DNA from: Zygnema cylindricum
Lineage: Eukaryota > Streptophyta > Zygnematophyceae > Zygnematales > Zygnemataceae
Assembly (NCBI GenBank): GCA_037447655.1
Contig: JBBHKE010000817.1
Coordinates: forward strand, 92,191-156,190
Reading direction: 5' to 3'
Length of the DNA stretch: 64,000 nt
The position numbers were made by a program, and so were the translations under genes. Below the pieces are notes generated by a model. That model made no database searches. It saw only the letters and a list, made by a program, of their open reading frames with translations, and was not told the DNA's origin. This document shows, in pieces, positions 13,231-55,500 of this stretch. Positions within the stretch are counted from its first letter, which is position 1. Each line of letters starts with the position of its first letter.

Positions 13231-13368
13231 AAAGTGAACTCCAACAAAGGTAACATAAATTAGACATCAAAATGTCAAACCCTAATCCACATATTGCATC
13301 CACAAAGGTTAGAGATAGCCTGAGAAAGTCTGCAAAATCCACACTAAAAGAGGTTGTTGAAGAGAAAC

Positions 13369-28519: not shown

Positions 28520-30277
28520 GTTTGTTCCCTTATTACGGCTGGCACTGTCCCTTCCCGTATTTGTGACCTCCTCACGGCCTCCTGCCTCGTAGCTGTCACC
28601 AAACCCAATGGGGGAATCCGTCGTATTGCAGTGGGCGAGGTATTGTACCGATTGGTGGCCAGCGCCATCTGCATCCAGCTCCAGCCATCTTTCCATGATT
28701 ATTTCTCTCCTCATCAGTTCGGAGTGGCAACCCGCGGGGGTTGTGAGGCTGTGGTCCACGGGATCCGGGCTTTGTTAGATGCCCATCCGGATTGGTTAGT
28801 CCTCCAGGTGGATGTTTCTAATGCCTTTAATATAGTGGATCGGAATGCAATTTTTTCGGAGCTTATGGCTGCACCTTCCCCGATTGTCCAGATATTTCCT
28901 TTTTTGAGAGCTTTTTATTTACTGAGCAGTAGCCACTCTTTCTCCAGTGATGATGATTTGGTCCCACTTTCCTCCACAACTGGCACTCGTCAGGGTGATC
29001 CTCTAGGGGGCCCTTTGTTTGCCCTAGCCCATTACCGCGCCCTCCGAGCTTCCGTAGTTGCTTACCCTTCTTGCCTCTTCCCTTCAGTCGCAGATGACAC
29101 ACATATTAGTGGTCCTTCGGATCAAGTTATACCGGCGTATGACTTTTTCAAGGCTCGCTTGGTCGAACTCAATCTTTCGGTCCAGTCCTCTAAGTGTGTT
29201 GTTTGGTCCCCACGTCCTATTCCTCCTCCTTTCACACCCCCTCTAAGTTTTCAGACTCCTCCCTTTGAAGGCATTCGTGTGTTGGGTTGCCCACTTGGTT
29301 CCGATCCATACGTCACGACATTCCTTGATTCCGCTCTTCAGACAGATTTATCCCACGTGGACGACCTTCATCACCTTTCTGATCCCCAGGTGGCCTTTAC
29401 TCTTCTCACACGGTGTTTCCCTCACCAACCCTCCTACCTTACTCGGAATTCCCCTCCCACCCCATCCTTTGTGTGTTCACTTTCTGCATTCGATGATCGG
29501 CTTATGGATGTCCTCCACACTTTGTTGGGCCGTGGAGCTTTTGATCGCGAGGCTTGGCCTGCGGCACGCATCCAAGCCTCTCTTCCTGTCTTGGGTGGCG
29601 GTTTGGGTTTACTCTCGACGACGCGTGTTGCTCCAGCCGCCTATTTGGGGAGTTGGTGCATTGTTGCTTCCACTATTGTCTCTTGTTTTCTGGCCGGGGA
29701 CACTCCTATTCTTGCGGCCGTGGTTCCCCGTGTTTCGGATGGTGAGCTCGCCTTCCAGCGGTCTCTTTCGGATGCATCACGTTCTCTTAATCCGGCTGCT
29801 ATCGAGGACATGCCGATTTTTTCCACTTGTTACGACATCAGTTGCGCGTGTTCAGGAATCCATTTCTGATCGCGTTGTCGCCGCTATTAAATCCGAGCTT
29901 CTTCAGGCGCTTCCTTCCAAATCTTCACGTGAACGTTTTCTATCTTGTGGCGGACCTGGCTCTGGAGCTTAGCTATTGGCCTTCCATATCTTATCCACTC
30001 TTCGTTTCACCCCTGCTCAGTTCACCACGGCCCTTAGGTTCCGGCTTGGTCTCCCTCACCCACCTTTGCTTGGCTCACTTGTTTGCTCCTGTGGCCACGT
30101 TCTCGAGCCTGACGGGGTCTATTTGCTTCGTTGCTCCGAGGGGGGCGAGTTGATTCATGCGCACGACACGATTTGAGACACCATCGCTACTATGGCTTCT
30201 GAGGGGGGATTTTTTGTTCGTCGCGAGGTCTCTCATATTATTCATTCGCGTCGGATCGACCTTGTACTACTTGATGG
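28520..30277 (+). pseudogene. LINE reverse transcriptase and C-terminal domain, frameshifted
   Basis: The RT motifs are in order: KPNGGIRRIAVGEVLYRL, PHQFGVATRGGCEA, QVDVSNAFNIVDR, GTRQGDPLGGPLFALA, and VADDTHISG as the catalytic box (usually [FY]xDD). The main frame closes at 29869. A +1 frame carries on with RVQESISDRVVAAIKSELLQ to about 29972, then [19 protein letters not shown] and CSEGGELIHAHDTI to a stop at 30174. Non-LTR RT with a Cys/His C-terminal domain is secure. The exact LINE clade is not. Confidence 0.85.
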
Positions 30278-31805: not shown

Positions 31806-32217
31806 ACAGCTACACTAATTCCTACATGTCTCTGAGCAGACAGGTTTCTATGCTAAACGCTGCCAGTTTGTAAAGACGACCGCTGCGTGGCCGCCTCGGA
31901 CTTCCTTACATCTACACCTCGAGGATCAAAACCCTCTTTAAGCTAAGCAAAAATGATGCATGAACCTCCAAGGGTTCATGACTTCAGACACCTGTCAGTT
32001 TTTAGCCGTTTGAACTCCTGACGTCTGATGTCGTACTGTGGTCCAGTTCAAAGCTGATTTTACATCGTGTTCCCGCGGTGCCGTACGGGAGTACAATCCG
32101 ACCTTTGTCCCGTATGTATCTCTAGTTGTACTCTCGAATATGAACTTGTCACGTCATCGAAACATCAATTAGTACGCGATAAAATAATAATACCTGCTGA
32201 CGTCTTACGGCATGACA
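31806..32217 (-). repeat. LTR-like block of D, 3' side
   Basis: Clear similarity to 48779-49187 in the same orientation. Both end (plus strand) GGCATGACA. They share the GAACCTCCAAGGGTTC inverted repeat and TTCCCGCGGTGCCGTACGGG. LTR termini are not firm: the purine-rich tract expected just outside was not found and no target duplication matches, so the true LTR may extend further or be truncated. Confidence 0.7.
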
Positions 32218-32476
32218 ACTGTCGTGCATGACGGTGTAACTGTGAATGGCATGCATCACATCCAACTTGGGTCGCCGATTATCACCAGAAAATGAATGAC
32301 CATGACATATGTACAGTATTCGTGACCACAATCGGGTACAAAGCATATATAACGCAACAAATAATAAATGAATCTGCTTGAAAAAGTAAATTATTCCGAA
32401 CACATAGACTTAGCAAGAAATTAAAAAAACAGAGCAAGGTCAGGTAAGTAAGGACGGAATTTCCCCCCCCAGCTCC

Positions 32477-32749
32477 TTAGCTTGCGGAGGAGCTGGTAAA
32501 AACTGTCGGTAGGTCGCGACATCCGTAGGAAAACCACTGTCCAACCGGGATAGTGTGCAGAGGTGGAACCAAACACTTCATATGGAATCCCAGATTGCAA
32601 TAGTCGCAAAGAAGCATTGTTGTTTCTCCATCAGCTAGCCGACAGAACTGACACTCAGTGGCCTCGGTAATCGGCATCCGCCACGTGTCCATGTTGTGGG
32701 AAAGGTCGGGTAGATAGGAAGGAGCACAATTTTTCGAATGCTCTCGCAA
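32477..32749 (-). pseudogene. PHD finger at the C-terminus of D polyprotein
   Basis: The frame contains ECQFCRLADGETTMLLCDYC, then NLGFHMKC and GQWFSYGCRDL. This is the C4HC3 PHD pattern: CxxC, CxxC, HxxC, then W followed by the last pair, of which the first Cys is Ser here. PHD fingers of this kind read histone H3 tails. It follows the integrase without a clear gap, at the place where chromoviruses carry a chromodomain, so a targeting role for insertion is plausible. Pol ends near 32425. One lost ligand suggests decay. Confidence 0.8.
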
Positions 32750-32857
32750 AGTTCGCTTGTCGGCCCTTTATAAGCTTAATAATCCATTAGCGTTGATTTT
32801 TGTTATCCTCAAAATGTGAGCCGAAACTTCCGTGTCGAGTGTGACAAAAGTTTGCCG

Positions 32858-33808
32858 TCACAAATAAACGTAATCCCCCACCCGGAAGGGTTTTTGTTGT
32901 GGTCGGTAGCTGCCACTGCGAGTCGTCCCAAACCGTAAGGAGTCGCGATGTTGGGCAATCTGCAAGTTTTCAGAATCCATGGGCATTTCTCTAGCGAAAA
33001 GCAACGCTCGGTTAGTTAGTTTTTTTAAAAACAGAGAACCAGACATAAGAGGTAGAGGTAAGCTTGCGGCTTTCTGTACATTCCTACATAGTAGTGGTTT
33101 TCGACCAAACAACATATAATACGGGCTCAAATTTGCCAGGTTGGCCTATACAGACATGCGATAACCCATGACAATATATCCTAATGATTCATCCCACACC
33201 GTAATCTGTTTTTCCAAGCAATGTTTACGCAAAGCACGCTTAAAGGTTTGTACCGCTCTCTCTGCCAAAGCGTCTGCTTGAGGATGATCTTGACTCGTCC
33301 GCCGGTGATCGATTAACGCCTCGTCCAGCATCTCATGAAATTCGCCACGGAACTCGGTTCCTTGGTCGGTAAGTACTTCTGCGGGGGCTCCATACCGGAG
33401 GAGCACGTAATCCTTAAAAGCTGCGGTGGTAAGTTTGGCAGTTTTCTGCGAGAGTGCCACAACTTCCACCCATTTACTGAAATTCTCGATCGTTATCATG
33501 ATGAATTGTTTGCCCCTTCGCGAAATGGGAAAGGGACTTGCACGATGACACGACCACCTGTAAAAGAGACCCCGAATAGGCAAGGGCTGAAGGGAGGTCT
33601 GTCGGTTCGAAAATGAAGTTCGTAGCCGGTCACATGTGCTGCATTCCTGCAACACAGCCGCCACATCAGCCTGCATGCCAGACCACCAATACCCTGATAG
33701 TACCAAACTCAAAGTCTGTTTGGTGCCATAGTGTCGAAGGTCAGTATGAATTTTGGTTGATAAGTGATAGTAGTTCAGTCGGCCGTGGGACATGCCGATG
33801 ACTTCCAT
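32858..33808 (-). pseudogene. Gypsy integrase of D
   Basis: The zinc-binding N-terminus reads HTDLRHYGTK with CSTCDRLR. The catalytic core contains ITIENFSKWVEV (the first catalytic Asp of the usual ID-FSK box appears as Glu), VLTDQGTEFRGEF (second Asp) and ALAERAVQTFKRAL (the Glu). The C-terminal part continues in a second frame at 33130-32858 with SPYYMLFGRKP and a VGDYVYL box. A stop near 33146 separates the two. It is defective. Confidence 0.88.
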
Positions 33809-34079
33809 CTGAGAGCAGACGAATAAGTGAGCCCCCTATCCATAAGTTACTTTGGGCTCTCTTACGAACACGCTCCTCTTCTATTGGTAGGGTGCCCGCC
33901 CGAAAAGATTGAGTAGATATAAAAAGAATTAAAGAACTATCCCGCCATGGATCGTGTTCGGTTTTGTGGTTTGTAGGTGCTGCAAAACTATAAATCAGAT
34001 GTGCTCCTGCTGATAAGGAGGCAACTGATTCGTCATCAAAATCCTGTCGTACACCGTTATCATTAGAGTGGGTCAAAGG

Positions 34080-34452
34080 GTTCCTGGAAATGTTGTCGGC
34101 ATTCAAACTGAGGAGCTCGGGTCAATGGATTATTTCCATGTCATATTCCTGTAAAATAAAAGCCCAACGGGCTAATTTGCTTGATAGCTTGTCATTGGTC
34201 ATGAGCCAATGCAATGGTTCATGTTCAGTAAGAAGGGTAAAAGGCTTGCCATAGAGATAATGTCAAAAATGCACAATACCCCAAACTGCGGCAAAGCATT
34301 CTCCCTCGTATCTACTGTAATTTGATTCCGCTTGATTTTTGCTTCTACTCGCGTAGGCCACCGCATATTCCTCACCTGTGAGTTCGCATTGAGTTAGGAT
34401 AGCGGCAATACCGGGCTTACCAAAGTCAGTCTGTAGACAAAACGGTAATTTA
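34080..34452 (-). pseudogene. RNase H of D
   Basis: Translation of the minus strand downstream of RT gives QTDFGKPGIAAILTQ, EEYAVAYASRSK, YSRYEGECFAAVW, TLLTEHEPLHWL, KLARWAFILQEYDMEI and LNADNISRNPL, the usual gypsy RNase H order. At least one stop interrupts it. Confidence 0.8.
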
Positions 34453-35079
34453 TCATTCGGGGGACGGAGGATGGGAGCGGTGGACAGTGCGTCCTTTAAT
34501 CCTTAAAATGCCTCGATCTGAGAGGGTCCCCACGTGAACGTGACTGATTTCTTCAAGATCATTTAATGGAGATGCAAGTGTGTTGAAACTAGGAACAAAC
34601 CGCCGGTAATAATTGGATAACCGTAGAAATGCACGCAGGCTAGTCAAATCAGTTGGGGCCAGTAGTTTACTAATTGCTTCCACTTTGACTTCTAGCGGGG
34701 TAATTCCCTCGGACGAGATAAAGTGCCCAAGGTATGGGACCCCTTCGGCCCCAAAGGTACATTTGGCAGGATGACATTTAAGTCCTACCTTTTTTAATTC
34801 TTTCAACAACCACTCTATATGCACGGCATGTTCCTCTATAGAGGCTGAAGCGATAATTAGATCGTCGATATAGAAACGGGCAAACTTACATCCCCCAAAG
34901 ACAGAGTCCATGACTTTCTTGAATACTGCCGGTGCATTTTTCAATCCAAAAGGCATAACCGCCCATTCCCAACGTCCGTCACTACCCCAAAATGTAGTTT
35001 TGTATCGATCTTTTTTCTCTATTTCAATTTGATTAAATCCCTTTTGCAGTTCTAGGATGCTAAATTATTTAGCTCCGCC

Positions 35080-35787
35080 TGCAATTATGTGTCCTCCATT
35101 GGACCACAGAATACAGGAAGCCTCTAAATAGTATTTAACTAACCCACTTCAAGCCACAACCACTGCTGTCCAGGAAGGCAAAATGACAGTTTAACTGCAC
35201 CTCTATGCAGCCTGGACTCCCCTGAGTCCGTAGCAAAAAAAGTTATTGAAAACGGCCAACCAGCCGATGAGTTATGAGGCAGTAAAATTGCCAATTTGTA
35301 CAAACTCTCAAAGGGAGAGGTGACTACCTACAAAAATTTTCTAAGTCCTGATTCCCTTTAATAACTTCAATCTACTGAAGTACGCACAAATAAGAGTACT
35401 GTACCGTACCAGAAAGTAATACTGCCGGTGTACCTTTTGTACAGCCTATGTACGACAAGGCTATTAAGCGGACGCGTGTTTGCTTTTCACTCGCCTATAC
35501 ATTCCTCAAAATTCCCATGACCGAATGTCATCTCTCCACGTGGCTCCAGGTTAAGCCACGTCACAAAACGCCAAAGTGACCACTCCGGGATTTCGGCGAT
35601 GATGTGCGCCGTTGGATTTACAGCGAGACGCAATCTTAGCCGTTATAAATACTTCCGCGACATTTGTTTCACTGTAGAAACAAAATGCGTGGTATCCGTT
35701 TTGAAATAGAATCATACTTCGTACTTTCATAAAACTGTATTTATGCATGACGTATACAGTTCTAGTTAAATGGATTTGTTCCTCCCA

Positions 35788-35825
<38 letters not shown>

Positions 35826-36143
35826 ATCATATACTATATCATTTAGCATTAGTCCTTGTCTAAATGGATAAAGCTGACCGCTATCGGCTAACTTGACGAA
35901 CCGCAAGTACCGGGATCAAATCCCGGGTCCGTAAGGTATATTTTTAGTAACCTACTAAAAATAACTGCCTGTTGAACTAAGGCAGCCATGGGTCAACCAC
36001 CCTCTCTATCCTTCAGTGACTACAACAACTATGGGGGCTAGAGAGAGGAGGTGGAGGCACGCTCGTCGTCCTTTTCTTTTCTTTTATACTAACATATTTA
36101 AAAAAAACCTAGAAAATACTCTAGAAATCTATTAATTTCAACA
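35080..36143 (-). mobile_element. Solo LTR, copia family C, inside D RT
   Basis: The reverse complement starts TGTTGAAATTAATAG and ends ATAATTGCA. It is flanked by CCGCC at 35075-35079 and 36144-36148. It shares the whole layout of the copia C LTR, including the CTCTCTCTAGCCCC and CCATGGCTGCC segments. It includes a TA run at 35788-35823 and a tRNA-like module on the plus strand. Confidence 0.93.
35852..35932 (+). other. tRNA-like module in solo C LTR
   Basis: A-box-like TCTAAATGGATAAAGC (35859-35874) and B-box-like GGGATCAAATCCC (35912-35924), followed by GGGTCC that could close an acceptor-like stem. It is antisense to the LTR, like the other modules. Confidence 0.55.
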
Positions 36144-36433
36144 CCGCCCACGTGATCAAAAATTTCCTCGGCCAACGGCATTCAATGTTGGTCTTGGATT
36201 GTACATGATTTCAGTTCTCGATAGTCCCCACACCTGCGACGTTCTGTAAAATTCCCCTCCGCGTTTTTTTTACGAGGCATGACGGAGGGCACCGCAATGG
36301 TGGAATCAAACCTATAAATCAGACTTGCCTCTTCTAACTCTGCGCATCGTTTGTCAACAGATTCCCATTCCGTTTTGGATAGACTATGCTTGGGCTTAGA
36401 TATAGGTCTGTCATCTTCCAGGTCAATAGTCAT

Positions 36434-36954
36434 TTTGTAAGTGGTGTGTCAACCTAAGTCTTTCATAGAGAAAGCAAATGCGTCTACGTTTCGGTTTATG
36501 ACTTCATCTAAAATTTCGTGTTTAGTTTTCTGTTAGTCTAGTTCAAAATTTCCATGTCGGTTTTTCAGGCATGTTAATGGTCATGGCTTCCATGGTTTGT
36601 GCAAATGCTAGCTGTTCATCTGCTATCAAAGAGTGACCCAACTCATACTCGACAGGAAGCTGATGCAAACAATTTACAGCGTGATGCCAACTTCTAAACG
36701 GAAATTCAGCTGTCCAGTGTGGTGATGCCCGTCCCGGTACCTGAGATCTAGCGGTCGTGTATGTTGGGAGAGACCAACTCATGTGACTAGGTTCCAAAAA
36801 ATCATAAATAGTGTGATCTTTGTCAGACTTAGCTGGGAAAGGAAAGAGGGCAAGTTGAAAAGTTGTACCCCGGAGAGAAGGTGAGGACTTGGAAGCTGTG
36901 TGTTTAAATGGTGTATGCCCCCCCCCCAGCTGATTGAGACGGATGGTTCTGTGC
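36434..36954 (-). other. Spacer between methyltransferase and RT of D
   Basis: Short broken frames (for example 36797-36543) with no recognised domain. A C run on the plus strand (36920-36928) may mark a frameshift. It probably encoded the RT-proximal linker. Confidence 0.4.
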
Positions 36955-38259
36955 CTATCGACCAGCTACGAACCCCATGCCTAAGACAAATGACAGTGAT
37001 TGGGGATCCAAGACACGACCAAGTAAGGTGCAGCACTGCCTCTCGGTGAGTCCCGGGGCAGCAGTGGTGCCTGAGATAAAATGTAAAATATGTTCTCGTT
37101 CTGTGGCAGTAGGTTCTTCAAAGCTGCCTGTATGAGTATTCTGAAGCATGCCCGATCCATTATGTGAGTATGCGTGAGAGTGTGGATATGCAACTAGTGT
37201 AGGCAGTGTACGTAGTGGCTGGCCCGGGATGTTAAGACCAAATGCAGGAGGATAGTCTGTTAGTATACATGTCTGGACTTTATGAAATGGAAGAAGTGCA
37301 TCCTGAATGGAAAGGTTAGGTGGTCTGGACAGCAAGGTTAGCTTCTTGGAGCCAACCCATGTCCACCAGGTTAGTCCACTTGGAACGAACGCAGTGAGCC
37401 AGCAAACCGTGGCGTGCATCATCGATAAATAACGGTGGTCGAATCAATGATTCGATGCGTTTTTAATCTGCGAGAACCGTGGGTCGGGGATCATTATAAA
37501 CTGCGATATTTTCTAGGATATATCCGAAAGGACGATCCTGTGTTTGGAAGAAGTGGATCAGACGAACCACCTTGAAGAACAACTAGTACGCGGATGTGCG
37601 AGACCTAAACCTTTCTCGGCCCTAGACATACCCTGACATTCCTATCCAGCAAAGAGGATATCAATTGGTTCCAATTCCATTGAATGATGATTTCGTATTA
37701 GCCGCATATCCTGTGGCAAAGCCGAATGCATATCGTGAAACGCAGATTCGGGTAAGAGATAAGGATACTGTCCGTGCAAGACTTGACAGTGGTGCAACTC
37801 AGTGCGTCTGGCCAAAGGATCAATATCTACGAAATAGTAGTGCTTTACCAGAAGACCGTTCCGAAGGCAAGAGAGAAGTGAAGTCCCTATTCCCGCAAAA
37901 AAGTCGAAGATAACGAGACCGTTTTGGTTAGGTTGTAAATTGACCAGTGTCCTTTTAATGGGCAAGAATCGGGACGAATCCATCGTAATGGAGGGTGGAT
38001 CTATAATACTAGATAAAGTAATCGGTATAGTAAATTTATAAAGCTGGTCAAAATCTGAAGAGTTTATGATAAATCCGGGTGTACTAAATAATTTTGGTAA
38101 ACCCGGGGGATTTGGTGAGATTTCATCCAGTGTTAGAGATTCAAGGATGTTTGCACCTATGCCAACTACGGCATAGGCTGGCAAGATTAGCGCTGAATGG
38201 GCCGTAGTAGGCATGGGTTGTCGGGCCGAGATAAGGGGTAAGCAAATTTTGCGTTCCAA
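36955..38259 (-). pseudogene. C5-cytosine DNA methyltransferase domain in D
   Basis: The minus-strand frame has motif I (FDFFAGIGTSLLS), the motif II acidic region (YYFVDIDPLARR) and the lead to motif IV (EPIDILFAG). A TAG at 37644-37642 falls exactly where the text continues ECQGMSRAEKGLGLAHPR, with the catalytic Cys at 37638-37636 in ECQ rather than the usual PCQ. After a frame change, a motif VI-like GYILENI follows. Motifs IX/X appear as TEREHILHF and RQCCTLLGRVLDPQSLSFVLG. C5 MTases transfer methyl from S-adenosylmethionine to cytosine in DNA. It lies between protease and RT, in the polyprotein order, so it is a captured domain. At least two stops and two frameshifts inactivate it. Confidence 0.85.
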
Positions 38260-38389
38260 AAATTGTTAGGTCTGTACGAAAATGTTTGATCAATGCATAT
38301 CAACCCCCCCCCCCTATGCGAAAAATGACGTCTATGCCAACAAGGCACTCATAATCACTCCACTTTGTGACCAAGGCGTGGGCATATAT

Positions 38390-39127
38390 CTATGCGAAAT
38401 TTGTCTCCGACTGGTTTTGGAACTGAAAACAAACTGGTTGTTTAGTGATTCCGAAGACCGGTTTTGTGGTGCCTATGGAAGTCAATAAACGTGTGGTTGT
38501 AGGTTGTAATTTCTCTGCTGTGAGACCTATTTTGATTGCATAATCTGACTCAAGGATAATTAGTATGGCCCCGGTATCCATGAGAAGTAACGCCGGAGCA
38601 ACCCCATTTATTGGGAACACCCGTAGGGTGTTATCCAAAAAACTTATGTAAGGTGTAAGACTAGTACGTTCTTCAAGGGTAATTGCTTGAAGAGACAGAG
38701 TGTTTTGATTATTTTGAAGGGCATGTAATGCGTGTGCAGACTCAGTTAGATCCACGGATTTGGTGTCGTGCACCAGATCGGGAAGCATGGTAGATAGTAT
38801 TGATAAAGGTTCTTTGACCTTATAGGTGTCTTGAATGCTCTTCTCTAGGATTGTTAATGCTTGAACGGTGATGCTTGAAGCCGTTTTTGGAATAGAGCCG
38901 CGGGGTTCTTTAGAAAATGATAGTGGGATACGTGTGTTAATGGATTTTGACTCACGATTATGATCGGGAGTCCTTTTAAAGTGAGCAGCCCGTTGTTGAA
39001 CAGTCGACTCCCGAAGAGATCGCCCAACAAAATAGGGCATATGGACCACAGTTCGAGCCATTGCAGTTAATTGCGGTTTGACCTGCGCCATAAGCGCGGC
39101 AAACTGCTCTTTCATCATGGCCGCCAT
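38390..39127 (-). pseudogene. Aspartic protease region of D
   Basis: A 245-codon frame. The catalytic box reads PALLLMDTGAILIILESDYA, a retropepsin D-T-G-A with hydrophobic flanks, followed by VFGITKQPVCFQF. The N-terminal half is unrecognised linker. It lies after the zinc knuckles and before the methyltransferase. The D-T-G-A triad is intact. Confidence 0.85.
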
Positions 39128-39294
39128 GGTTGCGTGTATCTTTGCTCTTTCTCAGTCCCTCTTGCTGATTTTGGGGGAAGTGTCATTCTCTTCCCCTTTA
39201 GGTGGAGTGACCAATTTCGCCGAGCGGGCAGGTATACCGCCGTTTTCGATTTGATTTTGATAACTAAAATCCGGATTTTAAATGTGACATCGTT

Positions 39295-39400
39295 GTACGT
39301 AATAACCTGTTTGATTGCACTGAGTACACATGGCTGCCTTGTTTGGACAACTGCGTGCGTCATGACCATTGTGACAGCATCAAAAACATATACGCATCAC
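39295..39400 (-). pseudogene. Gag zinc knuckles of D
   Basis: Two CCHC-type knuckles are read on the minus strand. The first has CxxC, then HNGHDARSC, with a stop between its first two Cys. The second is CTQCNQTGYYVQRC, with Tyr at the His position. Nucleic-acid binding by Gag is the family role. Confidence 0.7.
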
Positions 39401-40166
39401 AGGAGTTGTTGGTAAAGATCTCATGGCGGGGGCCCTTGGAGGTCTTCGGTTAGGCCATGGGTTGCGCGAGTTAGGATTCAGATTAGGGTAATCTTTAGGT
39501 GAAGGTTTGGGCCGCTCATGAGCGTCCCACCTGCAATTCTGTGTCCTCCATTGGACTACAGAATACAAGAAGCCTCTAGATAGTATTTAACTAACGCACT
39601 TCAAGCCACAACCACTACTCTCCTAGAAGGCAAACTGAAAATTTGAATGCACCCCTGTGCAGCTTCGACTCCCCTGAGTCCGTAGCAAAAAGAATCACTG
39701 AAAATGGCCAACCAGCCGATAAGTTATGAGTCGGCAAAAATGCCAAGTTTATACAAACTCTCAAAGAGAGAGAGGTTCCTATCTACTTAATTCTCTAAGT
39801 TCTAAATTTCTCTCACAACCCCTATCTATTGAAGTACGAACCAATCAGTTCACTGTAGGGTACAGAAAAGTACTCTGGCTCATGTACTTTTTGTACGACG
39901 TATGTACGACAACGCGATTAAGTGGACGCGTGTCCATTTTTAACTTGTCTTTTTGTTCGCCTGAATTCCTGCGACCAAATGTCATCCCTCCGCGTGGCGC
40001 CAGGTCATGCCACGTCCATAAACGCCAAAGTGACCATTTCGCAATCTCGAGCGTGATATACACCGTCGGATTAAATTCGACATTAAATGTCCGCCGTCAA
40101 AACAAATGTCTGATTCATTGTTTTCGTGCGAGATAAAGTTCGCACTATATAATACTTGGTTCTATG

Positions 40167-40904
40167 TGTTGTTTTTAGAAAGCTTTAGTCCTCTTTATGC
40201 CTCAGCTGTGAGAGAGAGCTGTTCAGGACTTAAGCTATTTTTGGTTGAGTTCGGTTCAGTACTTACCGAAATTAGTGTGACAGTGAAGTTGGGAGTTCAC
40301 GGTTCATTCACACTTGGGACACGTGTCGTCACTTGGGAGAATGCGTGAGTATGTCCTCCGTGGACGTACGGAAATTCGGCAGGACCACTGGACTTCGTGA
40401 AGTCAATTCTACGGTGCCAAATCCTCTAATCGGACCGCTGACAGCCGCCGCCAACAAATAGTGACGAGGCGTGACTATATCATTATCACTTTACGTTGTC
40501 TGAACTTTGGTGTAAATATTTGTGATAGAATGTTAGATGTACGGCTGGAATGCCTCCGTACAGCTTAGTGTAGTTTCGGTGTATAAAAGTAGGACTTAGT
40601 GAATTTGATTTTTAGGAACAAATGATATGAAAACTGTACACTCAGTTTTATGTAATTTCATTTCTACATATCTCACATATTTGAAAGCGGAAATGATTGA
40701 AATTTTGTGTGTGTGTTTCTTTTTATGTTATCTACATTGTGGAAAATTTTCAGGTCGTTTAGAGTAATTTTGTGAAAGTTATAGTCTGTCAACGTTTCTG
40801 TTCAGCCATCGGTATTTGTGGAAGCTTCCTCTCTTGATTTGTTCTACGATGACTACTGCTACATCTTCTTCATCTTCAGTACAAGCACTTGTCTCGGAAC
40901 AATA
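40167..40904 (+). repeat. 5' LTR of copia B
   Basis: TGTTGTTTTTAG...GAACAATA. The 3' copy ends GAACAACA, so the terminal CA has mutated to TA here. An ATG at 40847 opens MTTATSSSSSVQALVSEQ, which in the ancestral sequence would read through into gag. Confidence 0.93.
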
Positions 40905-43900
40905 GGTCACGAGCCCTCCTTCACGGATCCGGTCTTTGATGGACGTGGATATCTGTATTGGGCAGATTTGGATAAGTCTTACTTCAAGCAAGTGAAACTT
41001 ATTGATGTGTTAAATGGATCATTCGCAGAATCTGATGCCAGCTTTCATCAGAAAAATGACCAGACTTTGCATTTAGTAAAGCTTATGATATCAAAAGAAT
41101 TGCATATGACATATATTAATGTTGCAAAAGCATCAGATTTGTGGGATGCATTGAAATCTTCTTATGTTAAAGCTAGTGACCAGCATGAGATTATAACTGC
41201 TGGTCAAATCTATGAGTATAAGTACACAGGTGGTAGCATGGTGGAATACACTAATCAGTTTCAAATGTTACTGTCAGAAAATGCATGTTCTGGGGGGACT
41301 TTCTCCCCTTATCATCAGGCCATGATTCTCCTAAAGGGGCTTCCTAATGAATATAAATGAGCCTCAGATGAAATGAAAAAATTGTCTAAACCTCTTTGGA
41401 ATTTGCAAAAAGCTATAGAGTTTATCTTGGCAGAAGAGGCTACTCAGACAGTTTTAGGATTTGGAAAACCAGCTGTAGCATTTACGGCTCAGTTTCAGAG
41501 GGAAAATAGATATCAAGGGAATCAGTTTAATCCTCAGTTTGAGAAATGTGTTTATTGCTATACTGATGGTCACTCCTTCAGAGCTTGTCCTTTGTATATA
41601 AAAGCTCTTGAAACATGTACCATTCGGAAAGGATGGAGACACCGCGGACCTCCCATTTCCCAAAAACCTCCGAATAAAATTGTTGCATTTTCAGCGGAGG
41701 ATACGGAATTGGAGAAGAAAAAGACCGAGGAAACGACACCTGATGTGATCAGTTTTGCAAAAACAGATGACAAAGAGTTCTTTGCTCTCGCCAAACTCGA
41801 CATGATGGAAGGAGAAAAGGACCTCGGATGGATAATGGATTCCGGCAGCTCTTCACACATGTGTTGGAACAAGTCTTGGTTTAAAGAGATGTCTTCTATT
41901 CCTTTACGTCAGATCTTTTATGCTTGTGGCTATGCTGTTGAATCAAATGCCAAAGGAAACATAGATCAAGATTGTGTGATAGATGGAATTGTTGTTAAGA
42001 GAACTTTGTATGATGTCTTGTATGTTCCAAAGTTCAAGAAAAATATGTTTTCTACGTCTGTAGCTGAAAGCAAAGGCTTTGAGGTTCTCCAGAAAAATGG
42101 CAAGAAAATAGTGAGCAAGAATGGAAGAGTAGCTCTAGTAGGAACTAGAGGCCCAAACTTTTTGTACCGCATGGACCTGGCTAATAAAATTGATTTTGCG
42201 TACTCCAGTGTCCTATGTGATAATGTTTTGTGGCATAAAAGGCTTGGTCATGTGCACCATGAGAGACTTACTAAGATGATAAACCATAATATGATAGAGG
42301 GAGTCAAGCTTGGTCAAAAAGAGTTCGATGTTTGTGATGGTTGTGCTCTCGGAACGCTTCACAAGCTTCCTCTACCACAAGTTTCTGATCATCGAGCCAC
42401 AGATCTCCTTGGTATTATTCACTCTGATGTCTTCGGCCCTTCCAAAGTTCCCTCTCTTGGTGGCAGCCGCTTCTTTGTCACCTTTACAGAGGATTACTCC
42501 CGATATAGTCGCCTATACTTCATGAAGGAGAAGGGAGAAGTCTTCACTCACTTTAAGCACTACAAAATCTGGGCGGAGAAACTTCACCGCAAATCTATTC
42601 TTGCTTTGCGAACGGATAATGGTGGAGAGTATGTATCTCATGCATTTGCTGATTTTTTGAAAGAGAATGGCATCTCTCGAGAATTTACTGCTCCGTACAC
42701 ACCGGAACAAAATGGTGTTGCCGAGAGACTTAATCGGACTTTGACTGAATGTGCTCGATCTATGATGGCCGATAAAGGTGTGGATCCAAAGTTTTGGGGG
42801 GAAGCTTTTCATTGTGCTTCCTACATTAGAAATAGAGTGGAAACCCGGGCTGTTAGGGGTAAGACACCTTATGAAGTTTGGACAGGCAAAAAGCCAAATG
42901 TTAGTTATTTTAGAGTTTTTGGTAGCAAATGTTTTATCTTGGATAATCTTCCTAATTGGAAGCTTAGTCCAAAATCTGTACCTGGCATCTTTTTAGGCTA
43001 TGATGACGAATCTGCAGGTTATAGAGTGTATAATCCTCAGAGAGGATGTCTTCAAACAGCCAGGAATATTCAGATTAAAGAAGAAAGTCAATTTGTTGAC
43101 GTTTTTAGCATGGATGCAGCTGAAAGGAAAGAGAAAATACAAGAGTATATCATTCTTGAGCAGGTACCTTTTACTCCATCCTCTTCTACTTCTTCTACCT
43201 CTCTCCCAAATGCCTCAGGGCCGTCTAATACTCCTTCTGGAGCTGCTCCTTCTGTCGATGCTCCTCCGAATACACGCCTTGTGCGGCAATCTAAGGAACC
43301 AACCGTTCCCGCGTCAGATTTTCCGGGGGGAAGAAGGCAAAGTAGCCGCCTTCGAGGCGACCGAGTTGAGAGTGCTTTTTCTGCAAGCACAGAGGATCCG
43401 CTTACTATTCATGAAGCTTTTTCCGTTCCTGAAAGGATCATTGGATCTCGGCTGCAAATGAAGAGATAAAGTCAATTATGGAAGCCCAAACTTGGGAACT
43501 TGTGGAGCTCCCACCGAACAGGAAAGCTATCGGTTGTAAGTGGGTCTTCAAATTAAAATTGAATCCTGATAATACAATTGAGAGATATAAAGCTAGACTG
43601 GTTGCTAAGGGATTTAGCCAAAAGAAGGGAATTGACTATGAAGAGACCTTCTCTCCTGTGGTTCGCTTTCCTACTGTTACAGTTTTGCTATCTCTTGCTG
43701 CAATAGAGGATATGGAATAGCATCAGATGGATGTTAAGACAGCTTTCTTGCATGGTGATTTGGAGGAAGTAATTTATATGAAGCAGCCAGAGATGTATGC
43801 AGAAAAAGGGAAAGAAAATCTGGTCTGTAAACTGTTGAAGTCCCTTTATGGTCTAAAACAGGCTCCGAGGCAATGGAACCTGAAATTAGATGATTTTTTA

Positions 43901-44970
43901 ACCAATCTTGGCTTTACCAGGATCAGTTCAGATCACTCAGTCTATGTAATGCAAGGTGATGATGGAGTGATTTATGTGGCAGTTTATGTAGATGATTTGC
44001 TACTGATTAGCAAATCCATCAATGAGATTAATAAAATAAAATCAGCTTTGAATTCCCGGTTTGAAATGAAAGACTTGGGTGAGGCTAAGTATATTCTAGG
44101 AATTCAAGTAGAAAGAGACAGGAAACAGAAAATTATTTATTTAACTCAAAAGGAAGCAATCACGGACATGTTAGAAAAGTTTGGCATGTCGGACGCAAAG
44201 GGGAGTGCCACTCCTATGGAATTCAGGCAGAAATTGGAAGGCACGGAAACGGATGGTGGTGTTTTGGTTGATGGTTTTTTAGATTCAGGGGAGGCAGATT
44301 CTATGTCCTCCATTCCTTACAAGCAGATTGTCGGAAGCCTCATTTATTTCATGAATTGTACTCGTCCCGACATCGCAGCAGCGATTGGAGCCTTAAGCCG
44401 AAGCCTTCAAAACCAAGGAAATCAGACTATGAGGCAGCAAAGAGAGTTCTTCGTTATCTTGCAGGAACTCAAAATCTTAGACTCTCTCTCGGTGGAGAGG
44501 AAGTCAAAATTCATACATGGAGCGATGCGAGCTACGGAGATATGCCGAGCCGACGCTCCACCACCGGATACATTTTGAAGATCGGAAGTGGAACTTGCTG
44601 CTGAAGCAGCAAACTTCAGAAGGTAACGGCTCAGTCTACCATGGAGGCTGAGTACATGGCTGCCAGCTCGGCAGGTAAAGAGTTACTTTGGGTAAAGTCT
44701 CTTCTCCAAGAGCTTCTCTTTATGCAATCTGGACCATAGATAGTGTGGTGTGATAATCAGGCAGCAATCGCTATTGCATCTAATCCCGGTCATCACTTTA
44801 AGAGTAAGCACATTGACATCAAGCTACACTTTGTAAGAGAAAAGGTGATGGGAAAAGTCTTGAAGTTGAGTTATTTACCGGATGAGCAAATGGTGGCTGA
44901 TATGATGACGAAACCCTTACCTGCTCCCAAATTGAAGTTCTGTAGAGAGGCATGTGGACTGAGTGACTAG
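40847..44970 (+). pseudogene. Copia B Gag-Pol, multiple stops and frameshifts
   Basis: Gag runs to a TGA at 41358. The next frame (41373-43469) has zinc knuckle CVYCYTDGHSFRACPL, protease WIMDSGSSSHMC, integrase HKRLGHVHHERL with CDGCALGTLHK, then EDYSRYSRLYF, RTDNGGEYVS and EQNGVAERLNRTL, so the D, D and E residues are all present. A frameshift near 43440, a stop at 43720, a frameshift near 44410 and stops near 44602 and 44738 break RT (AFLHGDLEEVIYMKQPE, YVDDLLLIS) and RNase H (TWSDASYGDMPS, WCDNQAAIAIAS, ADMMTKPLPAPK). Integrase is better preserved than in copia A, while RT is worse. Confidence 0.93.
40905..40919 (+). promoter_or_regulatory. Primer-binding site of copia B, decayed
   Basis: GGTCACGAGCCCTCC abuts the LTR. 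It matches the initiator tRNA-Met anticodon-arm complement GGTTATGGGCCCACC at 11 of 15 positions. The position equivalence with A and C supports the same priming mode. Confidence 0.55.
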
Positions 44971-44993
44971 CAGAGTCTAAAGCTTTAGGGGAG

Positions 44994-45730
44994 TGTTGTT
45001 TTTAGAAAGCTTTAGTCCTCTTTATGCCTCAGCTGTGAGAGAGAGCTGTTCAGGACTTAAGCTATTTTTGGTTGAGTTCGGTTCAGTACTTACCGAAATT
45101 AGTGTGACAGTGAAGTTGGGAGTTCACGGTTCATTCACACTTGGGACACGTGTCGTCACTTGGGAGAATGCGTGAGTATGTCCTCCGTGGACGTACGGAA
45201 ATTCGGCAGGACCACTGGACTTCGTGAAGTCAATTCTACGGTGCCAAATCCTCTAATCGGACCGCTGACAGCCGCCGCCAACAAATAGTGACGAGGCGTG
45301 ACTAGATCATTATCACTTTACGTTGTCTGAACTTCGGTGTAAATATTTGTGATAGAATGTTAGATGTACGGCTGGAATGCCTCCGTACAGCTTAGTGTAG
45401 TTTCGGTGTATAAAAGTAGGACTTAGTGAATTTGATTTTTAGGAACAAATGATATGAAATTGTACACTCAGTTTTATGTAATTTCATTTCTACATATCTC
45501 ACATATTTGAGAGCGGAAATGATTGAAATTTTGTGTGTGTGTTTCTTTTTATGTTATCTAGATTGTGGCAAATTTTTAGGACGTTTAGAGCATTTTTCTG
45601 AAAGTTATAGTCTGTCAACGTTTTTGTTCAGCCATCGGTATTTGTGGAAGCTTCCTCTCTTGATTTGTTCTACGATGACTACTGCTACATCTTCTTCATC
45701 TTCAGTACCAGCACTTGTCTCAGAACAACA
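44994..45730 (+). repeat. 3' LTR of copia B
   Basis: 737 bp, closely matching 40167-40904. It is preceded by the purine tract TTTAGGGGAG and followed by the CTATG duplication. Confidence 0.95.
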
Positions 45731-45895: not shown

Positions 45896-46110
45896 CTTTT
45901 GTTGAGAGTGACATGAGTCACTTTTTAGCATTACCTGCTTAAGCTAGGACAGCCATGGCTCAGCCACCCTCTCTATCGCTCAGTGACAACAACAAGTATG
46001 GTGGGCAGAGAGAGGAGGTGGAGACGGGTTGTCCGCCTTTTTCCTTCTTCTATTTGTACTAAATTTAGACCTAGAAAATACCATATAAAACTAATAATTT
46101 CAACACCACC

Positions 46111-47279
46111 AGCTGGTCTGCATTTCATACTTTACACTATACTCTACAGCTTGCTCGAAGGTGAATTTAATGCCATATGCTTCGGTCGAACGATTCTGAA
46201 TGAACCGTCGAGATTGTGTGGGAAATTGACCCACGAATTTCTATACTGCCTCAGCCTCTAACATTAGATCCAGTAGGGCCTCACGCAAAGTTTCCATACG
46301 TGACCACAATGCCGGGGCTGTTTCACCCGGTTTGCGTTTGAAATTCATTAATTCTTTGACTTGGTAAGAATTCTGCAATTGATACTCGTCCTGTAATAAA
46401 TCGAATATTAACGAGACAAGATCTCTTAGAGGGACCAGCATTTTAAGTCTAGCCGGAATTGCAGCCCTAGCTACCACTGCGAATTGATGAGAAACCTCAG
46501 GTATTGAGGTGAAACTTCATTGCCTGCGGAGTCATAAACTGCGGGGACAACGGGTTGGAAAGGAATTTCGGGGCTGCCAATTATGGCTAGAGCTCGGGAA
46601 TAGGCGGGTGCTATTTCAATCATAACACAAATTTCCTCATATTTCCGTGTATAAAGGGATAGGGCATATCCTCTGAGGTATCTCCCTAGTAAAGAAAAAG
46701 CAACCCGCAGGTCGTAACGGTCTTGGTACCGAAATGTGAGGTCACGCATTTCGGTATTGGAAAGCATGCGAAAGTGGGACAAGGACATGGTGTTTTTGAG
46801 ACCAGAAAAACAAAAATGATGTTTGCCTCCTTCGATGTCCATGGAGGAAGCCATGCCTTTGCTGGAAGGGTAGGAATTAGTGTGTAAGGTATTGTTCACT
46901 GAGAAAATTGACGGCGGTAGCCTTAGACCTTGTATGTTAAGTGAGTCGGTGTCCGAATCTTCCGCGAACTGTGGGTGGAAGACGAAGAAACCGATGACGT
47001 AGACCTATGGAGAGAAGAAAGACCAGATCTGGACGGACAGGGTGATCCTAAAAATTGCGATGGAACTGCTGAGATTGGGAAAGATATTGGAGGGGAGTCG
47101 ACCGTAATTGACTCTTTGGACGACACTTGGTAAGAACGTGAGATTCTGGTGGTACCTGCCGAAAACTGTAAATTATTCCAGTCCGTTGGCATGTAACCAA
47201 AAGATTGTCCTATCCGAATGTAGCGAAATGCCAAACACACACAAACGTACGCTAATACCCGCAAACCTGAAAACACCAA
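46111..47279 (-). pseudogene. Gag (capsid region) of D
   Basis: Three frames follow each other: 47279-46923 (Ser/Thr-rich, with a possible start at MPTDWNNLQFS), 46899-46471 (FRYQDRYDLRVAFSLLGRYL), 46477-46241 (ELMNFKRKPGETAPALWSRM, typical of plant gypsy capsid). A tail reaches the solo LTR at 46105. The rest of Gag resumes at 39531 with WDAHERPKPSPKDYP. It is identified by position and by the capsid-like segment. Confidence 0.75.
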
Positions 47280-48778
47280 GCAGTTCGGTCTATCTTATAT
47301 CACTAGAGTTAGTCTACTCGAACTCTGTCTTTCACAATTCCACTCAAATCAAGCCACACCAAGCAAACTCGTGTCACCTATGAAAGGCCACTTGCGGCCA
47401 GATGTAACAAAGCAGGAAACTATTCAGGGCCGACACGGCCAGATCTAAGAAAGCGGGAAACTATTCAGGGCCAACACGGCCAAAGTTAGTAAAGCAGAAA
47501 ACCGTTAATCAAGACCGATCAAGGTCAGATCTAGGACCATGCAATGGATCTAGGACCATGCAATGATGATGTCCTATGCGAAGGAAAAGAAACTAAACCT
47601 TCAATAAGATCTTTAACCCTCTAAACAAGTTCACTTGATAACCTAAATCGCGCCTGCACCCACAAGGATCGGTTACTCACCTGAAGCGATAGCATCCTGT
47701 AGGATACTGTAAATGTCTCCCAACGATGCTCCAGTTCCAAGTTACGTTATCACACCACAACTCAATGCCAAAGTAGTTAGTAGCCTGTTAGGGTACGCGT
47801 ATCAACTTTAAGCAACGCTCTACCCAACTATTAAAGCAGTTATAATTTTATGTGATAATTCGTGAAACCTACTATATATATTTATATATACATATATTTT
47901 TTTCTCTTGGTTTTTAATATATATATATATATATATAAAAAAAAAAGGTTTGCTAGGTTTTCTGAGTGAGTTAATCCGGTAGGCAGACAAAAAGAGAAAC
48001 TATACCGGATTTACAGGCGAAATCAGAAAAATCGAACTCAAAGCCCACCAAGCAACGAAACCCTAAAAATTGAAAATAAAAACAGATTAAAGCAATCCAA
48101 AGAAAACCACTAGATTGGAAAAGAAAACAAAACAACTTATTAATGTTTGACTGAAAAAGAAAAGCAAATTACAATAACTAGACCAAAAGAAAACAATTGA
48201 CACAAGGAATAACGAAAATTAAAAATGAAACAAAATTAAGCACGGGAATATTTGCGACACTAGCCACTAGGCTCTTAAGTCTTTTAATATTCCCTACTAG
48301 GAGTCCAACCAACAGACAAGAACCCTTCCTTAACTGGACGAAGGAGCCGAGATAGCCGGTATTCCCACAGAGCCATACAGGACTGGAGCTAGACTGCAAA
48401 GTCAGCGCTCTGACAGCAAGAAACACCAAGTCCACGGACAGAATTCAACCACCACAGCACGTAGAAGACAGTCTGGAGGGAAACCTTGCAGGCTGGCTTG
48501 CGCCGGTAGATTAGGTAAGGTCTTAGTACAAAGAGAAGGAGAAGCTCAGAGACAATTACTAGCATGAAACTATGGGTCTGAAAAAAGGAAAAACCCTAAC
48601 TCAAAAACTAGCCGGTCACTAAATATTTAGGTAAAATCCCTAGCGATAGAGTTTGACAAATCACGAGAATAATGCTTGCCAGAAAACGACAACCTTCCAA
48701 TGTTGGATTCCCGTGCTTAATTTTGCAAAGTTCCTATCTTGCCAAATGGCATTTATCCTATGCTGTCACTAATCCGTA
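47280..48778 (-). other. Leader region of D
   Basis: No protein domain is seen. It holds tandem repeats at 47394-47514, a TA run near 47870-47940 and a GAGCCGAGATAGCCGG sequence at about 48346, related to the repeat at 12956-13230. It would be the 5' untranslated leader between LTR and Gag. No primer site was recognised. Confidence 0.45.
47394..47514. repeat. Three tandem units of about 43 bp
   Basis: Units begin GCGGCCAGATGTAACAAAGC, then CACGGCCAGATCTAAGAAAGC, then CACGGCCAAAGTTAGTAAAGC. They are followed by a short doublet of GATCTAGGACCATGCAATG (47528-47566). Confidence 0.75.
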
Positions 48779-49187
48779 CAGCTACACTAATTCCCACATG
48801 TCTTTGAGCAGATGTTTTATGTTAAACGTTGCCATTTTCTAGAGAGGACGGCTGCGTGGCCGCCTCGGACTGCCCTACATCTACACCTCGAGGATCAAAA
48901 CCCTCCCTAAGCTAAGCAAAAATGATGCATGAACCTCCAAGGGTTCATGACTTCAAACACCTGTCAAGTTTGTAGCAGTTTGAACTCCTGACGTCTGATG
49001 TCGTACCGGGGTCTTGCTCCATGCTGATTTTACATCGTGTTCCCGCGGTGCCGTACGGGAGTACAATCTGACCTTTGTCTCGTACGTATCTCTAGTTGTA
49101 CTCTCGAATATGAACTTGTCACGTCACCGAAAAATCAATTAGCACGCGATTAAATAATAATACATGTTGACGTCATACGGCATGACA
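48779..49187 (-). repeat. LTR-like block of D, 5' side
   Basis: Partner of 31806-32217. GAATT follows at 49188. The block has the same inverted repeat GAACCTCCAAGGGTTC and the CCGCGG-containing segment. The far end may be truncated. Confidence 0.7.
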
Positions 49188-52100: not shown

Positions 52101-52516
52101 TTAAAAACAGCGGGGTTAGAAAGTTTCTGTGGCGAGAGTTTTTATGGAAGGATGTTGGAAGCAGAAAGGAGAATGGTTTTGAGAACGTTTGTCATTGAAA
52201 ATTTGAGAAATAATTTGTGTACGAGGAAGGAATTTCATTCTAAATGGTGAATGGGTCTTTTACAGTTTTCGTAATCTGCCAAATTTCAACAGCGGACTTT
52301 TTTTGAAGTTTGGTTTCTGTTTCAGTTTATTCGTAAAACGTTTCTCTTTTTTCTTTTTTATGTTTGGGTGACAGCTGTATTTCTTGAGGTAGGAGAAAGA
52401 TTTGGCGATGAATTAAATTTGCGGTTCATGGTAGCTTTTTGGAGCTGTGCGACAATTGTCACGCCACTCATTCTTTCTCCTAATATTTTTTGCTTATAAA
52501 AACAAAACATAGAATC
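49188..52516. other. Intergenic and 5' region of the zinc-finger gene
   Basis: AT-rich to about 50280, including palindrome-rich sequence at 49330-49380. From 50280 it is GC-richer, and a 188-codon frame at 50295-50861 has no recognisable domain. It may be promoter or 5' untranslated exon of the gene starting at 52517. A possible 3' splice site TTTGGGTGACAG ends at 52372, so a leader intron is possible. No other gene is supported. Confidence 0.45.
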
Positions 52517-55500
52517 ATGGCTGGTCCTTCTACTAAGATAGGAACTGGAGGATCGGCCAGAACCAGGGGCCAAAAGCCAGAGTGGTGTAACGGGGGAGAT
52601 TGTGAGAGGAAGGGAGCACATATTCTTAATTTTAAAACTGAAATTGACCATCGACTGGCTCGCGGAGATGGAACAGTGGATGCCCCTAAAGTAGTTTTTG
52701 ACGCAAATGACCAAAGGATAGAGACAGAGAATTGTTTGGGGATAGTTGAAGGGGACGGGGAGGTGGTCTTGGGCACCACTTTAATTGAACGCGATGGTGC
52801 GAGGTTAAGAAAGGAAGTTATCGATGATAGGATGGAAGGAATGGAAGAGGGGCTGATTCTGGATTTGAGAAAAGGACAGACCTCTGCAAGGACTTCAGGA
52901 AGAGGTAGCACCAGGTGGTCAAATGGATTAGCTACCAATATAGGTTTAGAATATGATAACTGTAGGAGTAATTGTGGTGAAGACCGAAAGTATTCTGGAT
53001 ATGAGGAGTGTCAGATTTCTTGTGGAAAATGTAGTCAATTGAGGAAAATTAGTGCATGTGATGAAACTGAGGATTGTTGTATGGATGTCGACATTTCTGG
53101 GGGAATCAAAAGGCCGTCTGATGCAATGAAAATTGATGGTGGTATTGGGGATGGTATTGTTGGTACAGAGGAGCTTGTGCAGGTCAAAGAGGAGAATGGA
53201 ACAATGTCAAACGAGACTTGTTTGTATGATTATAGTGCAAATAATAGACCAAAAAAATTGTACAGTGGAGAAGTAGGAAGAAGAAAGAAGGTAGTTCAAG
53301 CCGCAGGTACTTTTCAGTTAAGCGACGTAGGAAAAAACAGAAATCTATGGAGGTGCGAAAGTAGGCTCAAGTCTTGCAACAACAGTCAATTGAAGGAACG
53401 AGAAACTCCACCACTGAGGCCAGCCGAAGTTTCTGGAAATATTTCAAATTGTCGTGAGAAGGGCATAAAGGAGCAGTGTAGTCAGGAATATTTGCTGATT
53501 GGGAAAGAGAAGGCCATGGAAATGGACTGCAATACGCTGAGACAAAGAAAGGGAGGTCCCAGGTTTGCCATGGACGGTGGAAAGAACATGTCAAAAGGTT
53601 TGAGGGAGTTAGTGCAGCTTGTGGCTTGGACAGGACCTGGTAGTGTTAATCATTCTGCAAAAAGAGTGTCTGCTGCGGCCCAAGTTGCGAGAACAGCTCT
53701 GAAGAGAGTTCAATGGCAAAAGAAAGACAGTGGAACGGAGGCTTCTCCCAGGCAGGTATTAGAGCTTTTTGCGAAAACTCTGTCAGGACAGGTAGGAGTA
53801 GGGAAATCTGGCAGTCACAAGAAGGGTGCTAAACGGGGGAATTTGCGCAAAGTTAGGAATGTTGTCGACAAGGGAATGGCGGAGCCACCACCGTCAACTG
53901 CTGAAGTTGTTGACAAGGAGACTTCCAAAAGTACCTTAAATGAGAAGTTACCCACTAAGCGTTGCCAAAAGTTGACAAGGAAATCTGTTAGAGGCCAAAT
54001 TAATGGCGTGTTTCGGGACTGGCGACCTTTTTTGAGATCCAGCCAGTTACAAAGGCAGGATGCTCAAGTTCCCAGCAATCTCCCAGCCTCTGAGAGGGTC
54101 GCTGAAAAGGACACTGTCATTGAAAAGGTTGGAGACATTAATGGCAATGGTTGTCACCTGTCAACAGATACAACTTCTGATAGTCCTTTTCCTATTCAGG
54201 GTACACAAGTCGTGAATTTTTGCACAGTTGTTTACAAGCGTGGAAATAGTGGATACAGAAATAGAAATGAAGTTACAGTTGTAACTGAAAATAGTTTTTC
54301 CAAGCAAGGAGTGGAAGCTGAGGGTAGGATTGGTGATGAGGCAGCATTCAGTAGGGAGAACGTCGGAGTTGAGAAAATAGATACTCAAAAAATGACTGAG
54401 GAGATACTGGAGACTGCTAACAGGGATGTGGATAGCTGTAAAGGAGTTTTACAATCGCAAGAACAAGACATTGACTTATTGTCCGTCCCGATTGACTCCA
54501 CGGAATCCCTTCCTGCATTGGCACCCAAGTTTCTGGAAAAAACCTATACGAAGACATCTAGAGAGTTGGAGTGGGAACCTGGTGTCTTCATGAGCAAGTG
54601 TTCTTCACGTGACCTTATCAGATGTTTAGAGAAAGGAGGAGTTGTGGTCAATCATCCAGAGGTCCTTAGTGAGGAGGGAGAGCTTGTCGGGACCTGCAAG
54701 GTTCGCCAAATGTCAGATATCTTAGGCTCTGTACATGTACCTAAGCAGTCTGTAATTCAGAGAGGGAGACCAAAATTGAAATTGAAAAACAAGTCCCATG
54801 AACGAGCTATTCCAGTACTGCAGCAATGGAACCACGTCGAAAAGGTATTTGAGGAGACCGAAGTGCGTGAGATTCCCGTGGTGGTTTCAGATGAAGGACC
54901 CATACCACAGCAAAATGAAGACCTACGGGAAACAGAGAGTAAAGCTCTGCCAAACGATGATGTCGAGAATAGTAAGATGTTTGATGTAAAGATTGAGCTA
55001 GCAGATATGGCAGAGGTTAAAAGTGGATGCCGAGAAGAGTGGATCAAGGTAGACAGGAGTCTTGCTGTTGATGGTTCTGGGACAAGTGCTGAAGGAACAG
55101 TAGAATCATCTCAGATTGAAGAGTCCGAAAGGGAGCCAGAGTGGGTTTTAGCCGAAGATCGAATTCTCAAAATTTCTCTTCCTTTGCCTGAGGACGGAAG
55201 TGAACTGGAGGTCATGCTGGCAAATATCGGGGAATCTCTGGGCGAAATGGGAGGCAATATTTCGATGAAGGCTACTCTGGTTCAGAAGGAGGTGGTGCAA
55301 CGAAAGGACTTAAATCAAGTGGGTTGTGGTGTGGAATATTCGGTAAGGTCTGACAAAAATACCGTAAGGAAATTATCGGTGGAGAATATTGCCATAGGAG
55401 ATTTGGCTGGGGATGAGACACTGAGATCTGTGTCTTTGTCCCCAGGTGCACAAGTGGCAGTTGATTTGCCGGGTTCTTTGTGCCTGATACAGTCTGGTTT

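Follow-up and report, generated by a model that had tools for sequence, protein, structure and literature searches.

A decayed Gypsy-type retrotransposon of Zygnema cylindricum with split repeats and a predicted Dnmt3-like methyltransferase domain

The window, i.e. the whole stretch of 64,000 nucleotides analyzed here, carries on its minus strand a Gypsy-type retrotransposon that is no longer functional and includes a broken C5-cytosine methyltransferase (MTase) domain. The copy is probably a degraded member of a large Gypsy-type family with split repeats, in which a Dnmt3-like MTase forms part of Gag-Pol and would methylate the newly made cDNA of the element itself. The initial annotation had proposed a Gypsy-type element with a C5-MTase between the protease and the reverse transcriptase (RT), and this proposal is borne out by unbroken relatives found elsewhere in the genome.

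The window copy was laid out by using pieces of an unbroken copy, L009 on contig C1344 of the same genome, as tblastn and DNA queries (Table 1). It spans approximately positions 49187 to 31806 on the minus strand, where a nested Copia element and an insert of 1 kb break its continuity, and the order of its polyprotein is gag, zinc knuckle, protease, C5-cytosine MTase, RT, RNase H, integrase and PHD finger. Both the protease upstream and the RT downstream of the MTase, as annotated initially, were found. The interval first assigned to the MTase, 36955–38259, was correct in part: the domain is present on the minus strand at 36925–37944, whereas the sequence above 37944 represents the linker between protease and MTase.

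Table 1. Layout of the window copy of the MTase-bearing element. L009 pieces are queries taken from the unbroken copy on contig C1344.
Feature	Position	Strand	Evidence
Repeat A1 at the 5' end of the element, starting with TGTCATGC	48249–49187	-	87.6% identity over 946 aligned bases to the C1344 A repeat; end motif
Leader, A1 to gag	47837–48248	-	Three pieces, 80–87% DNA identity to the C1344 leader
Gag N-terminal part, broken	46016–47264	-	tblastn with L009 gag: three pieces, 66–77% identity, 3 stops
Nested Copia inside gag, foreign to the MTase element	40166–45728	+	Repeats 40166–40902 and 44993–45728, 98% identical
Gag C-terminal part and zinc-knuckle region	39290–39559	-	tblastn with L009 gag; CCHC in L009
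Gag end, aspartic protease (MDTGA near 38580), start of linker	38089–39289	-	Asp_protease_2 match weak, below curated cut-off
Protease and linker together	37945–39289	-	L009 pieces
C5-cytosine MTase domain, with stops and frameshifts	36925–37944	-	tblastn with L009 MTase, residues 1–340
Spacer, MTase to RT	36467–36923	-	L009 pieces
RT, N-terminal part	36104–36466	-	L009 pieces
Insert of approximately 1 kb within RT; 550-bp interspersed repeat and microsatellite	35080–36103		L009 pieces
RT C-terminal part and RNase H	34200–35079	-	RVT_1 3e-23
Integrase, H2C2 and rve core	33299–34199	-	tblastn; Pfam on L009 piece
Integrase end and PHD finger	32495–33298	-	tblastn; PHD 8.4e-11 in L009
Repeat B1, ends ...GCACGACA	32220–32464	-	83.9% identity to C1344 B; junction
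Repeat A2, truncated	31806–32217	-	90.8% identity to A1 (413 aligned positions); K2P 0.088

The MTase of the window copy shows 67.5% amino acid identity to residues 1–340 of L009 (E = 8.9e-145 when only the window was searched) and contains five stops. A stop codon precedes the ECQG box and the stretch from motif VI to motif VIII is out of frame with motif I, from which we conclude that this copy cannot make the enzyme. The divergence between repeats A1 and A2 (Table 1) shows that the copy is not recent, and repeat B2 was not found in it. No Pfam family matched either of the two MTase fragments of the window copy, and the fragment at 37642–38262 (206 residues) matched no PDB chain up to E = 10. 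The Pfam DNA_methylase search suggested in the initial annotation thus left the window fragments undetected, whereas the unbroken domain of copies L002 and L009 matched PF00145 (9.5e-13).

An interspersed repeat of 550 bp, with copies approximately 80% alike, is located at 35075–35618 (inside the RT), 39527–40072 and 15731–16270. A plain LTR model built on the pair starting at 35075 and 39527 was rejected because both are copies of this repeat, one of them inside the RT. Elsewhere in the window, very long open frames on the plus strand at 52484–57481 and 57951–60284 are likely to belong to a host gene, and the former ends in a zf-C3Hc3H domain (PF13891, 3.8e-10). The open frame at 28520–29869 on the plus strand has an RVT_1 match (3.5e-14) and perhaps represents a LINE-like element. 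The region 12616–14604, with the terminal motif ATGCACGACA and A-like fragments, may be what is left of a further element of the split-repeat family.

At least 152 matches, the window's own included, were identified in the genome (2689 contigs), a lower bound since 150 of 1403 first-look candidates were scored. L009 has a single open frame of 2395 residues reaching from gag to the PHD finger. Pieces of this polyprotein match the zinc knuckle, PF00145, RVT_1, RNase H, H2C2, rve and PHD models, and the protease match is weak and below the cut-off. The Gypsy (Ty3) order gag-PR-RT-RNaseH-IN with an rve integrase is thus present, with the protease match below the cut-off. REM1 of Chlamydomonas is a PHD-bearing relative. 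Besides the polyprotein, L009 contains no frame of at least 150 amino acids, and in another copy, L032, no frame within A1 and the leader exceeds 117 residues. Of 40 copies, 7 have an unbroken MTase, as do 2 of 6 further copies; these fractions describe no random sample since the copies were chosen partly for open frames. Among the unbroken copies, L062 was aligned over 333 of 340 residues, and L009 and L010 are 99.7% alike.

The position of the MTase within the element is maintained across copies. A protease piece, which lay outside the query that had found the copies, is located upstream of the MTase on the same strand in all 40 copies, with DTG in the match in 29 of them. An RT piece follows downstream in 31 copies within the fetched stretch, and none is present there in the other nine. 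The 40 upstream protease pieces exclude a chance host insertion in one copy, which the initial annotation had raised as a concern.

The initial annotation had also suggested that other copies be examined for an intact frame and for dN/dS, and unbroken MTases do exist. For the pair L009 and L019, dN in the MTase was 0.048 and dS 0.689, giving a ratio of 0.069, as compared to 0.044 in an unbroken RT-RNase H part of 147 codons and 0.212 in the spacer; a second RT stretch, broken in L019, gave 0.397 against L009. The corresponding ratios for L009 and L020 (one stop) were 0.093 for the MTase, 0.057 for RT-RNase H and 0.188 for the spacer. Closely similar copy pairs showed higher MTase ratios, 0.17 to 0.42, as expected if some of the recent copies are already decaying. 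Between the subfamilies represented by L009 and L011, where dS is saturated, amino acid identity was 78.5% for the MTase, 92% for the RT, 60% for the spacer and 52% for the N-terminal part of gag. We conclude that the MTase domain is under purifying selection, with dN/dS values that lie between 0.07 and 0.1 for diverged copies and approach those of the RT. A passenger captured by chance and now drifting would explain why the MTase is broken in the window copy and in 33 of 40 copies, but this explanation is hardly credible and is already contradicted by the low dN/dS between diverged copies, the constant location behind the protease in all 40 copies checked and the identity retained across subfamilies despite saturated dS.

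The similarity searches place the domain near the Dnmt3 group. The unbroken domain matched DNMT3A (8.8e-11) and TIGR00675 (2.1e-11, below the cut-off of that model). When an alignment of seven copies was compared to PDB, the 29 best distinct sequences were DNMT3A, 3B or 3C, followed by HhaI (E = 0.003). The animal DNMT3A/3B/3C catalytic domains, the best matches among solved structures, share the motif VIII type AHRxRxxWxNL with the element; they differ by PCN in motif IV as compared to ECQ here, and only approximately 120–140 residues align well. The Dnmt3-like C5-MTases of phages and bacteria, such as that of Cellulophaga phage phi18:3, score equally (bit scores of 45.0 and 44.7 for phage MTases and 44.8 for DNMT3A) and share DPRSKLFFE in motif V. 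MTases of the phi18:3 type have SPCQ, are encoded by a stand-alone gene according to the record, and show approximately 30% identity.

No close viral or prokaryotic relative was found among the matches listed from IMG/VR, prokaryote genomes and phages. When IMG/VR was scanned with the single domain, no relative was detected, and with a mixed alignment at least 478 relatives were obtained, the best 80 of which were kept (25–33% identity). The mixed alignment identified at least 323 relatives in prokaryote genomes, and the best 80 were again kept (24–36% identity). A tblastn search against phages matched 417 records, and the 20 listed were all below 60% identity. In a tree of 113 columns, which took in DNMT3A/C and the 147 of 160 relatives with a long enough frame, the branch leading to the retrotransposon clade is long (1.83) and the clade is placed next to two prokaryotic sequences (support 0.926), with DNMT3A/C apart. 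Based on the score tie and the tree placement, we term the domain Dnmt3-like by similarity and assign no source.

The active site has an unusual feature. In C5-MTases, motif IV contains the catalytic Cys, and this residue, the Gln, the EN of motif VI and the RxR of motif VIII are typical of an active enzyme. Motif IV reads WECQ in all nine unbroken copies, which keep Cys and Gln and have Glu in place of the Pro of PC(Q/N). The corresponding position was Pro in all 160 relatives retained from the prokaryotic and viral scans (the best 80 of each), although one of the two search patterns in each scan spanned this position and permitted E or P only. The ECQG box, initially read as an ordinary variant of the (P/x)CQ box, is therefore not such a variant, with Glu in 0 of the 160. 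The conservation of WECQ implies that normal catalysis is not assured. The domain could have been kept for binding or scaffolding of cDNA, primer or SAM, with catalysis abolished or reduced by WECQ, as the contrast between 9 of 9 copies with Glu and 160 of 160 relatives with Pro would suggest. We regard this alternative as unlikely, since the unbroken copies retain the residues expected of an active enzyme, namely Cys and Gln in 9 of 9, EN(I/V) of motif VI in 8 of 9 and RxR of motif VIII in 7 of 9.

Related enzymes have been expressed in yeast. The DNMTs of SymbioDIRS-Dnmt3 are described as methylating CG in yeast (PMC5890265), which supports a reading in terms of DNA methylation. The DNMT of KnitGypsy-Dnmt3 gave no methylation in yeast, an outcome considered inconclusive by the authors (PMC5890265), which, within that limit, counts against DNA methylation and in favor of binding. 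The same publication suggests RNA methylation for SymbioLINE-Dnmt (PMC5890265), and a changed loop at the active site would fit a different substrate, so that the enzyme might methylate the genomic RNA or the tRNA primer in the manner of DNMT2 rather than DNA. This is quite improbable given that the best PDB similarity is to DNMT3 and that the one DNMT2 chain among the matches listed scored only E = 0.82. Methylation of the element's own cDNA would be the likeliest function.

The footprint of methylation in the genomic copies is slight. Forty sequences were compared to L009, and after removal of pieces below 300 bases or 80% identity and of sequences below 500 aligned bases, 32 were left. CG in L009 corresponded to TG or CA in the copies at 729 of 3690 positions, as compared to 487 of 3775 for the GC control (GT or AC). 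In the reverse direction, from the copies to L009, the numbers were 369 of 3200 and 244 of 3490, respectively. The excess of approximately 1.5-fold is unpolarized and hence weak evidence at best, and CpG decay that is only mildly raised gives no strong sign of heavy methylation.

The repeats of the element differ from those of a standard LTR retrotransposon. Split repeats in the order A-ORF-B-A-B were observed in three of five long loci, which are the three read end to end (C1344, C829 and C449), and in none of these is the internal region surrounded by two plain LTRs. In C1344, A1 (85514–86444) and A2 (94981–95911) are identical over 931 bases and B1 and B2 are 99.6% identical; the ends are TGTC and GACA, the target duplication is TTGG and the inner junction is GACA-GC-TGTC. 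C829 follows the same plan with the duplication AAGG, and in C449 the flanks of the same arrangement are TCAT and GCAT, with three of four bases alike. The 4-bp target duplications are thus exact in two of the three end-to-end copies, and the ends are TG...CA. C1407 contains the 3' part only, with no A1 found in the fetched flanks, and no repeats were found in the 9.9 kb read of C82, the flanks of which are outside that stretch. At the B1/A2 junction, GC is located between the end sequences of the element in C1344, C829, C1407 and C449 (L009, L012, L010 and L011, respectively), whereas the window copy carries GT. The junction with GC resembles the joined-ends junction of a circle.

The Gypsy label is accordingly supported by the domain order and the rve integrase, but the element has DIRS-like split repeats instead of two plain LTRs. 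Split direct repeats are a trait of DIRS elements, and here they are combined with an rve (DDE) integrase in place of a tyrosine recombinase, and with target duplications. Since the ends are of the integrase type and both repeats are nearly identical in a young copy, the element may replicate by a scheme that differs from that of standard LTR elements as well as from that of tyrosine-recombinase DIRS elements.

The element closely matches the published description of KnitGypsy-Dnmt3 from Klebsormidium nitens, with which it was compared by description, and its kind is hence already known. The present genome (352.8 Mb) is distinct from that of K. nitens, which is approximately 104 Mb. Of the MTase-bearing retrotransposons in algae and dinoflagellates, mentioned in the initial annotation, KnitGypsy-Dnmt3 and SymbioDIRS-Dnmt3 are published (PMC5890265). 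KnitGypsy-Dnmt3 is described as having a DNMT3 in the Gypsy Pol ORF (de Mendoza et al. 2018, PMC5890265), with an MTase under purifying selection (Ka/Ks below 0.2) and, according to a figure legend, a DIRS-like repeat arrangement combined with Gypsy domains (PMC5890265). As far as these descriptions go, a Dnmt3-related MTase in the Pol ORF, DIRS-like repeats and purifying selection are common to both elements. WECQ, the PHD finger, the GC junction, the TG...CA ends and the 4-bp duplications were seen here, K. nitens being known by description, and the main text of that publication makes no mention of PHD (PMC5890265). SymbioDIRS-Dnmt3 of dinoflagellates similarly has a Dnmt3-like MTase in the ORF of the RT and A-coding-B-A-B repeats, but is described as integrating by a tyrosine recombinase, unlike the DDE integrase of the present element (PMC5890265). 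A 2024 paper cites the 2018 work and, in the part consulted, adds no such element (PMC11244446), and an opinion paper from 2019 proposes an antiviral role (PMC6338049). No such element in a further host appeared in the titles and abstracts found, which covered few subscription journals and were searched with terms other than WECQ. New here, with K. nitens compared by description, are the large copy number in a second genome, the conservation of WECQ, the presence of a PHD finger and an end structure with target duplications.

Retrotransposons are usually the targets of DNA methylation, and a selected MTase of their own therefore poses the question of its benefit to the element. According to the proposed methylation of cDNA, the MTase would be made as part of the polyprotein, packaged with the RT, and would methylate the double-stranded cDNA soon after its synthesis, either ahead of integration or at about that time. 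Joining of the outer ends would fall to the integrase, which the PHD finger may guide. The new copy would then arrive already methylated, which might protect it or give it the appearance of host chromatin. The complete scheme, in which a WECQ MTase acts on the element's own cDNA or RNA in combination with split-repeat replication, insertion by the integrase and a PHD reader, is a tentative and somewhat doubtful proposal. The many copies, some with an unbroken MTase, and the odd motif IV make the activity directly testable, and the split repeats combined with a DDE integrase, TG...CA ends and GC at the inner junction point to an unusual replication scheme. If the complete scheme is true, an element with WECQ, PHD finger and integrase would be a self-contained write-and-target module for entry into chromatin.
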